A stretch of 38,862 bases of DNA from a virus. The notes under the pieces are model-generated. The model was not told where the DNA came from and ran no database searches. It saw only the letters and a list, made by a program, of their open reading frames with translations. Shown here one piece after another: positions 4,972-8,511 of this stretch; positions within the stretch are counted from its first letter, which is position 1, and every line of letters starts with the position of its first letter. Made by a program: the position numbers and the translations under genes. The stretch covers positions 1 through 38,862 of the IMG/VR virus record IMGVR_UViG_3300024518_003520; one strand, written 5' to 3'.

Positions 4972-5688
4972 CTAGACCCCTGTCTGATCACGTCCTGTCA
5001 GCGACCGAGCCGACTGCCTGTCGGCTCGGTCATGGTCGAGCCAGCTCGGCAGACCATCCCACGTCCGCCCGTCCAGCTCGCCGCCGTTGTACGCAAACGG
5101 GACACGCCGCTCAACGCACTTGTCCCGGATGCCACGCACCCAATCAAGCTCCATCGCACGGGCTCCGACGCCCGTCTCGCGACCCACGTACACCCAATGC
5201 ATACCAACCACGGGCAGCGAGCGTATCGGGCCGAGCAACGGTTCAACGGCCACATATCGCGTCTTGGCCGGCAGGCTCCGGAGCGTGCGGATCCGATCGA
5301 CATACTCCGCGCTCTCCACCGTCACACCGAGCCACAGGTTGTTCGGCCACGGTAGTACATCGGCTAATTGCGCCGCCACTTGAGGTCGCTTCGTGAGTAT
5401 CTGGTACAGATGCCGCGGGGTGTCGGCGATCGTCTTAAAGACTCGCCGCACAAACGCCGGCGGCACCTCCGCATGGAACAGGTCGCCGAGCTGTGAGACG
5501 AACACCCGCCGCGGATTGCGCCAGCGAGTCGGCCTACGTAAGACGCTCGGATGGATCGTCGGAGTAAAGCTCCGCAGAAAATACGGCGCGCCACCGTGGA
5601 GCGCGTAGCATCGGTCACAGCCGGCGCTGGTGCGGGTGCAGCCGGTGACCGGATCCCATGACTCTGTCGGCAATTCCCTGATGTTCAT
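4972..5688 (-). CDS. DUF5131 (phage Gp37/Gp68-type) protein
   Basis: This 238-residue protein has the full signature of the phage Gp37/Gp68 (DUF5131) family. It reads WDPVTGCTRTSAGCDRCYA at residues 11-29 with its Cys cluster, then FVSQLGDLFHAEVP, ILTKRP, NLWLGVTVES, YVAVEPLLGP, WVYVGRETGVGARAM and a C-terminal LDGRTWDGLP. The spacing suggests a radical-SAM or iron-sulfur TIM-barrel-like fold. The biochemical role is not settled. It is intact and of normal length. An 89-bp gap with a CGGGCGCCCG palindrome lies downstream. Confidence 0.8.
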   Translation of the reverse strand: MNIRELPTESWDPVTGCTRTSAGCDRCYALHGGAPYFLRSFTPTIHPSVLRRPTRWRNPRRVFVSQLGDLFHAEVPPAFVRRVFKTIADTPRHLYQILTKRPQVAAQLADVLPWPNNLWLGVTVESAEYVDRIRTLRSLPAKTRYVAVEPLLGPIRSLPVVGMHWVYVGRETGVGARAMELDWVRGIRDKCVERRVPFAYNGGELDGRTWDGLPSWLDHDRADRQSARSLTGRDQTGV

Positions 5689-7625: not shown

Positions 7626-8507
7626 TTATGGGACTAGGTGCCGTTCTTGCTCCACAATCATCCGTCCCAGATACTCGGCCACCTGCGGCACTACGGCGTT
7701 GCCGAGTCCTTTAAGTCTGTCCACCCGAGAGGGAATCCCATTAGCCATTCGACCCACGTCGGGCTCAACGGCCCACTGACGTACTCCGACAGTGGCCGCG
7801 AATTCCCATAGTCCTTCTTGGTCTTGCCAGACTTCCAGTCTCGGCTTGTCGGTGTCGGGGCCATCACCGCAGCCTGTAGATCCCCCCTGTCGTTTTTCCT
7901 CGGCCGCCCATAATGGCTCGCTGACCCCTTCGGCGTCGGCCAAAGGCCGTACCTCGACATCCCTACGAGCGTGTACCTCACCTTCCCGATTCGCCCCTGA
8001 GACCCCCCGACGTTGCTCGTGTGGTCCGTTGCGACCGGCGTAGGCAACCACGAAGATTCGGTCGCGTCGGTGAGGCGCGCCAACGGACGCCGCTGGAATA
8101 CAATCCCACTCCGCATCGTACCCGCACGCGGCCAAGTCCCCGAGAACGTCTCCCAAGCCCCGTCCAAGCAAAGCTGCGACGTTCTCCACGAGAACATATT
8201 GGGGTTGAACGATGCGAATGATCCGAGCAAATTCAGACCACAGCCCGGATCGCTCGCCGCCGATTCCTGCTCGCTTGCCTGCGTTGCTGATGTCCTGGCA
8301 GGGGAACCCGCCGCAGATGAGGTCGACTGGCTTGAGGTTGTCTCCGACTGTTCGCACATCTTCGTACCTCGTCACGTCAGGCCAGTGCTTGGCGAGCACC
8401 TGGCGGCACCAGTCGTCAATCTCAACCTGCCAGGCGCATTCCAGACCAGCCCGTTCCAGGCCCAAGTCTAGTCCGCCGATGCCTGCGAATAGGGAACCGA
8501 AACGCAT
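7626..8507 (-). CDS. Dcm-type DNA (cytosine-5) methyltransferase
   Basis: The 293-residue protein shows the ordered C5-methyltransferase motifs: I FAGIGG at residues 7-12, II VEID at 28-31, IV GGFPCQ with the catalytic Cys70, VI ENV at 108-110, VIII RDR at 148-150 and X GNAVVP at 269-274. It would methylate cytosine in the phage (or host) DNA, protecting it from restriction. No cognate endonuclease is seen, so it is an orphan. The ATG at 8507 fits the GGAAGGA better than the GTG at 8510. Residues 158-245, where the target-recognition part should be, look low in hydrophobic core. This part of the gene is also read in a second frame (7691-8359). Confidence 0.9.
   Translation of the reverse strand: MRFGSLFAGIGGLDLGLERAGLECAWQVEIDDWCRQVLAKHWPDVTRYEDVRTVGDNLKPVDLICGGFPCQDISNAGKRAGIGGERSGLWSEFARIIRIVQPQYVLVENVAALLGRGLGDVLGDLAACGYDAEWDCIPAASVGAPHRRDRIFVVAYAGRNGPHEQRRGVSGANREGEVHARRDVEVRPLADAEGVSEPLWAAEEKRQGGSTGCGDGPDTDKPRLEVWQDQEGLWEFAATVGVRQWAVEPDVGRMANGIPSRVDRLKGLGNAVVPQVAEYLGRMIVEQERHLVP
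7691..8359 (-). CDS. overlapping second-frame protein inside the methyltransferase gene, 222 aa
   Basis: A 222-codon open frame lies wholly inside the methyltransferase gene on the same strand in another frame. Its ATG is preceded by GAGGT at six bases (CGAGGTACGAAGATG). The translation does not look random. It has a Ser/Thr-rich start, a Trp-containing middle (FSWRTSQLCLDGAWETFSGTWPR), three copies of a PTP motif (LPTPVATD at 105, WPTPKGSA at 140, APTPTSRD at 167) and a closing SPTWVEWLMGFPLGWTDL at 199-216. I recall phage proteins with such PTP motifs and a WVEWLMGFP ending, but cannot confirm this here. A dual-coding gene pair is the simplest reading. Confidence 0.55.
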   Translation of the reverse strand: MCEQSETTSSQSTSSAAGSPARTSATQASEQESAASDPGCGLNLLGSFASFNPNMFSWRTSQLCLDGAWETFSGTWPRAGTMRSGIVFQRRPLARLTDATESSWLPTPVATDHTSNVGGSQGRIGKVRYTLVGMSRYGLWPTPKGSASHYGRPRKNDRGDLQAAVMAPTPTSRDWKSGKTKKDYGNSRPLSEYVSGPLSPTWVEWLMGFPLGWTDLKDSATP

Positions 8508-8511
8508 CACG

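Follow-up and report, generated by a model that had tools for sequence, protein, structure and literature searches.

Two overlapping reading frames at the locus

The window, a tailed-phage record of 38,862 nucleotides from IMG/VR (IMGVR_UViG_3300024518_003520), contains genes for a terminase, portal, major head protein, tape measure and prohead protease. It also encodes a C5-cytosine methyltransferase (Dcm), the product of which we designated alpha, and within the Dcm gene lies a second open reading frame of 222 codons, the product of which we designated beta (Table 1). The nested frame begins with an ATG, terminates with a TAG and is in the +1 frame relative to Dcm, so that each nested codon begins at Dcm codon position 2. 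The overlap comprises 669 of the 885 bases of the Dcm gene. The initial annotation described this same-strand frame, its ATG, a GAGGT six bases upstream, its TAG, and its coverage of about three quarters of the methyltransferase gene, and each of these was confirmed in the sequence. The three PTP motifs it reported were likewise present, and the protein runs six residues past the ending it gave, to SPTWVEWLMGFPLGWTDLKDSATP. A DUF5131 protein is encoded near the methylase region (4972-5685, minus strand; PF07505, E=1e-62).

Table 1 Positions of the Dcm gene, the nested frame and their parts in the window.
Feature	Position	Strand	Evidence
Frame-0 Dcm ORF (C5-cytosine methyltransferase alpha subunit, motifs I-VIII and X), 294 aa	7626..8510	-	PF00145, phrog_363, AF2/Foldseek
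Nested +1-frame ORF222, proposed beta subunit (small domain)	7691..8359	-	phrog_1008, +1 stop depletion, conservation phase
Shine-Dalgarno-like GAGGT, 6 nt 5' of nested ATG (ACGAGGTACGAAG-ATG)	8366..8370	-	direct sequence; weak evidence
Beta N-terminal domain (FNPNMFSWRTSQ..FSGTWPRAGTMRSG..LTDATES..LPTP), overlaps motifs VI-VIII	8036..8230	-	+1 in layouts examined; reduced wobble variation
Region with three PTP motifs (LPTPVATD, LWPTPKG, APTPTSRD)	7838..8047	-	direct sequence
Motif IX, +1 frame (GPLSPTWVEWLMGFPLGWTDL)	7712..7774	-	EWLMG invariance; hhalign
Catalytic large domain, motifs I-VIII, frame 0	8031..8510	-	pLDDT about 84-98; substitutions mostly at codon position 3
Frame-0 middle, unconstrained, predicted disordered	7749..8003	-	pLDDT mostly <50, residues 169-253; codon position 1 most variable
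Motif X helix (GNAVVPQ), frame 0	7638..7724	-	pLDDT 80-96; frame-0 constraint returns

Alpha matched phrog_363 (E=3e-85) and PF00145 (E=2.7e-48), the latter over residues 2-160 only, and recognition of Dcm by Pfam and NCBIfam together ended at about residue 160. The PCQ and ENV catalytic motifs and motifs I-VIII were identified from PF00145 and an alignment with M.HhaI. The AlphaFold (AF2) model of alpha was confident over residues 1-160 and 262-290, with 85 disordered residues (169-253) between them, and superimposed on the large domain of M.HhaI over 162 columns at 1.5 A by Foldseek. The GNAVVPQ of motif X is conserved and aligns weakly to the GNSVV of M.HhaI. Motif IX and the target-recognition domain (TRD) are absent from the frame-0 chain, the middle of which is unconstrained and disordered; motif IX is found in the +1 frame.

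Beta matched phrog_1008 (E=4e-30), with residues 9-216 aligned to positions 35-281 of the 329 in the profile. Searches of Pfam and NCBIfam with the nested ORF returned no significant match (non-significant matches only in Pfam, and no NCBIfam model). Five short strands are predicted at residues 49-88, and the N-terminal domain has no known homologue. The number of PTP motifs ranged from 0 to 4 per relative in a simple pattern count. The +1 protein contains L-N-P-x-W-V-E-W-L-M-G-F-P, of which EWLMG was invariant in 95 relatives, and hhalign matched this motif to motif IX of the single-chain Dcm of Hamulus-type phages (prob 96.5, E=7.6e-10). In the Hamulus-type protein the Pfam DNA_methylase model aligns with residues 1-327, and motif IX lies between motifs VIII and X in one chain. 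Because the profile match is to this motif and the DNA_methylase model spans it, we assigned the WVEWLMGFP of beta as motif IX. Judged by its position, the N-terminal domain together with the PTP segments is most likely the target-recognition part. The AF2 model of beta alone was poor (pLDDT 60, pTM 0.31), and PDB sequence and fold searches with beta gave no match; beta is most likely the small domain of the enzyme, with fold support that reaches motif IX only.

In one relative, a homing endonuclease of the LAGLIDADG type (..AAYAAGLIDGEGCISIAHR..) has been inserted close to motif VI (L046:2500-3000) and shares the reading frame of beta. The Dcm frame is open throughout the insertion, and no intron was detected there by Rfam. 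Three others (L204, L254 and L019) have HNH-type sequences (CERCGG..LHRHH; CQVCGATGELERHH) beyond motif IX, close to the end of beta, as insertions or appended segments.

Openness and constraint of the +1 frame

The +1 open stretch in the window spans 226 codons, compared to a mean of 103 after synonymous permutation of the Dcm codons (p ~0.005, the resolution limit of the permutation test). The same permutation gave no excess for the +2 frame in the window (84 versus 80 codons, p 0.38). Synonymous-codon shuffles of 125 Dcm relatives yielded p<0.05 for the +1 frame in 82% and for the +2 frame in 7%, figures that take no account of phylogeny, the pairs and loci being related to each other; the outcome was the same for relatives with 46-56% GC as for the rest. 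Stops were then counted in 75 distinct Dcm genes that had been retrieved by Dcm protein only, which avoided choice by the nested frame. Only 9 stops were observed in the +1 frame versus 263 expected, and the +2 control had 534 versus 568. In class II, a second Dcm branch whose +1 frame is already open at the first codons, there were 0 stops in the +1 frame versus 173 expected (first 110 codons, 74 genes). We conclude that the nested frame of 222 codons is genuine and is maintained by purifying selection.

Constraint along the gene was assessed from frame-blind nucleotide alignments of disjoint pairs of relatives, in which differences were tallied by Dcm codon position and evaluated with sign tests. 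The test kept 42 pairs; 20 of 62 were skipped as the anchor pattern failed. From the Dcm start to motif VI, position 3 was the most variable in 42 of 42 pairs, the pattern of a normal gene, and before the overlap codon positions 1/2/3 differed by 0.15/0.09/0.48. Wobble variation was reduced across motifs VI-VIII. Between motif VIII and WVEWLMGFP, positions 1/2/3 differed by 0.43/0.31/0.30 in class I and by 0.37/0.19/0.18 in class II, position 1 being the wobble position of the +1 frame. Over the middle and motif IX, position 1 was the freest in 39 of 42 pairs (21 of 21 in class II, 18 of 21 in class I). Constraint on frame 0 returned at motif X, where position 3 was the most variable in 34 of 36 informative pairs. 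Amino acid identity in the middle was higher in the +1 frame than in the Dcm frame (0.63 versus 0.50, and 0.77 versus 0.59), and outside the middle the Dcm frame was the better conserved. In T4-like single-chain Dcm genes, used as controls, position 3 was the freest along the full length.

These results demonstrate that both frames are under selection and that constraint passes from one to the other: between motifs VIII and X of Dcm it holds the +1 frame and leaves the Dcm frame to drift. Constraint on frame 0 coincides exactly with the parts of the large domain. The initial annotation had suspected that the other frame was the constrained one in the middle of the methyltransferase, and the substitution phase there agrees. 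It had also named observations that would count against a second gene: homologues that lacked the second frame, frequent in-frame stops in related Dcm genes, and undiminished synonymous variation. Homologues kept the same frame, the stops were the few counted above, and synonymous variation does fall in the overlap.

The start of the nested frame was assessed across the family. With the best site per gene, a Shine-Dalgarno match of >=5 bases preceded the nested frame in 45% of genes and the +2 frame in 11%; counted per ATG, the values were just 19% and 6%, so the family-wide signal is weak. Class II gives a clearer picture: in all 51 genes in which the pattern could be placed, the Dcm start codon is followed by AATGAG, although AAT accounts for 39% of Asn codons elsewhere. 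Retention of AATGAG keeps an ATG of the +1 frame in place, four bases after the Dcm start. Separate initiation at a probable internal start fits the data better than a frameshift, because this class II ATG is fixed and because a frameshift would lose the beta N-terminal domain and, in the layout of the window, motif X.

Distribution and layouts among relatives

The nested frame is kept in at least 596 viral stretches. The family was also found in 242 phage records, chiefly of Mycobacterium and Paenibacillus phages, and in 343 stretches of bacterial genomes from many phyla. The expectation that homologues would sit inside phage Dcm genes was correct, and some had already been annotated (the 'g62 internal gene' of Lily, and Bloom_57).

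Three layouts were distinguished. In type A, that of the window, beta is nested in an alpha that continues to motif X; this layout accounted for 76 of the 80 loci retrieved with beta, 77 of the 80 retrieved with Dcm, 73 of the 80 in class II and 71 of the 80 from bacteria. In type B, alpha ends after motif VIII and the +1 ORF holds the N-terminal domain, motif IX and motif X. Type B is carried by cluster A and O mycobacteriophages, an Embleya plasmid and a few genomes. In type C (Hamulus and relatives), frame 0 holds motifs I-VIII, the PTP segments, and motifs IX and X, and the beta N-terminal domain is a separate +1 ORF. Constraint in type C shifts to frame 0 right at the +1 stop, from 0.198/0.118/0.077 to 0.192/0.184/0.314 at positions 1/2/3. 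In the type C mycobacteriophage genes L173 and L261-L308, the short +1 ORF (the beta N-terminal domain and 1-2 PTP segments) is clearly selected, though motifs IX and X are in frame 0. In all layouts examined, bar a few loci, the beta N-terminal domain is in +1 over motifs VI-VIII; exceptions such as L371 look like indels that shifted both frames.

No beta was found without alpha, except at contig edges. Candidates for standalone beta genes without Dcm had long alternative N-termini (MSWLFSQ..), which proved to be +1 readings of Dcm too. At three loci (L208, L221 and L348), alpha is cut short by a frame-0 stop after motif VIII and before motif X, but both beta and the reading frame of motif X are undisturbed. 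Either these copies are damaged, or alpha may not need motif X, or motif X may be translated by reinitiation.

The ten neighbouring ORFs inspected around nine prophage or genome loci encoded no restriction enzyme; they included integrases, DNA polymerase A, a primase-polymerase and one weak match to HNH. With several of the genome loci next to phage integrases and no restriction enzyme among those ORFs, the picture agrees with orphan methylases of phages or prophages, whose likely role is DNA protection. One methylase locus (L254) is flanked by two copies of the int-alpA RNA (RF02996; 1408-1484 and 4094-4159). A Roseovarius MAG (OX638333.1) has five loci with the nested pair on one chromosome (L400-L404), all of equal score and equal length, which suggests repeated prophages or an assembly artefact.

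A proposed two-subunit methyltransferase and its known counterparts

We consider it likely that the locus encodes a two-subunit C5 methyltransferase of the M.EcoHK31I kind, with the large domain in frame 0 and the small domain overprinted in +1. Frame 0 would yield alpha, the catalytic large domain with motifs I-VIII and X, and translation of the +1 frame from the internal ATG at 8359 would yield beta. Beta would supply the motif IX that alpha is missing and, most likely, the target-recognition region, formed by a small beta-sheet N-terminal domain and the PTP segments. As in M.EcoHK31I, a working enzyme would form from the two chains together; the phage may employ it as an orphan methylase whose probable purpose is protection of phage DNA against host restriction. 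Several points stand against this proposal: the products of the type B locus of Corndog were not found by mass spectrometry (PMC4351075), the AF2 model of beta alone is poor and matches nothing in the PDB, the TRD of M.EcoHK31I is predicted in the large subunit, unlike here, and L208, L221 and L348 have a frame-0 stop ahead of motif X although their beta is intact. The initial annotation had viewed the nested frame as an overprinted partner of phage Dcm genes. That partnership holds, although beta is most likely not an unrelated protein but the missing small domain of the enzyme (target recognition and motif IX). The methyltransferase frame looks poor in its middle because the small domain is most likely encoded in the other frame. 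Far more tentatively, the beta N-terminal domain could have been born de novo by overprinting, from the +1 reading of motifs VI-VIII, and never have left it, with recognition and catalysis co-evolving on the same nucleotides in an enzyme family that is very widespread among phages; we regard this origin as possible, if rather doubtful.

Could beta instead be an independent overprinted accessory protein, for example an anti-defence factor or a regulator, that shares DNA with the methylase and is no subunit of it? Its lack of a recognisable fold when modelled alone, of an NCBIfam model or significant Pfam match, and of any known homologue for its N-terminal domain would be consistent with such a protein. 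We consider this improbable, as Hamulus-type relatives have motif IX in one chain with motifs I-VIII and X, alpha has no other conserved middle region or motif IX, and beta was not found apart from alpha other than at contig edges.

The switch of the constrained frame from 0 before motif VIII to +1 after it could also reflect programmed frameshifting at that point, which would give a single fused protein; a frameshift, hop or intron was raised by the authors of the Corndog study (PMC4351075). Such a fusion would bypass the beta N-terminal domain, a part that overlies motifs VI-VIII and shows +1 conservation of its own; with the layout of the window, the fusion would also terminate before motif X. 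Together with the fixed +1 start codon of class II and the lack of splicing in Corndog by RT-PCR (PMC4351075), this makes a fusion very unlikely. From the codon shuffles, stop counts and substitution phase, we ruled out that the +1 frame is simply a shadow cast by conservation of a GC-rich gene and yields no product. Long chance ORFs do occur in GC-rich genes, and the beta motifs SPARTS and TWPR.G are partly set by Dcm motifs IV and VI-VIII. The shuffles nonetheless exclude a shadow, also in the genes of 46-56% GC, stops are depleted in +1 specifically, and the middle region is better conserved in +1 than in the Dcm frame.

If the two-subunit proposal is true, many phage genes annotated as 'DNA methylase' and 'hypothetical' are one two-chain enzyme, and no enzyme would be expected from Dcm expressed by itself. 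Of two overlapping frames, annotation pipelines usually discard one, so most records lack the second chain. The proposal bears on the mycobacteriophage question left open in PMC4351075. Our literature search found no paper on the nested pair as a general feature of phages, and none in which the nested frame is recognised as the small domain or its selection and spread are shown. The family is also a very well sampled example of a long overlap on one strand, where the constraint on each frame can be followed along the gene and natural rearrangements act as controls.

The small chain of M.EcoHK31I is presumably likewise encoded within the large one, in another frame. The small domain of a C5 methylase comprises a variable region and motif IX, and M.EcoHK31I (YGGCCR; Lee, Kam & Shaw 1995), as summarised in PMC3404938, consists of two polypeptides, a large one with motifs I-VIII and X and a small one with motif IX. 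The window is similar in that motifs I-VIII and X are on the large chain and motif IX is on a separate small chain. It differs, in a comparison with the description in PMC3404938, in that the predicted TRD of M.EcoHK31I is in the large chain, whereas the frame-0 middle of the window has no protein-level constraint and a low pLDDT, and it is the +1 chain that is conserved. M.AquI is a naturally split C5 methylase, cut within the variable region, whose small chain contains part of that region and motifs IX and X (PMC3404938). In the window, motif X is in frame 0 and outside beta; an M.AquI-like small chain occurs in type B relatives only, and the type B mycobacteriophage layout is nearer to M.AquI than is the window.

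Among phages, Corndog gp6/gp7 and the cluster O relatives belong to the phrog_1008 family, as does the nested protein of the window, but their alpha ends after motif VIII and the +1 ORF extends through motif X. Coding potential was reported in both frames of Corndog, the end of gp6 resembles the C-terminal helices of M.HaeIII, and the authors could not choose among two assembling products, a frameshift, a hop or an intron (PMC4351075). For a similar arrangement, that paper cites Halobacterium phage phi H (PMC4351075). Nested +1 ORFs in the same place that match phrog_1008 are annotated in Bacteriophage Lily (gp63, 'g62 internal gene') and Paenibacillus phage Bloom_57; the depositors labelled them as a second DNA methyltransferase, with no further explanation. 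M.HhaI and the M.SPRI-like Dcm of T4-like phages share large-domain motifs I-VIII and X with alpha, yet they are single chains with motif IX and the TRD in the same frame and no conserved +1 frame.
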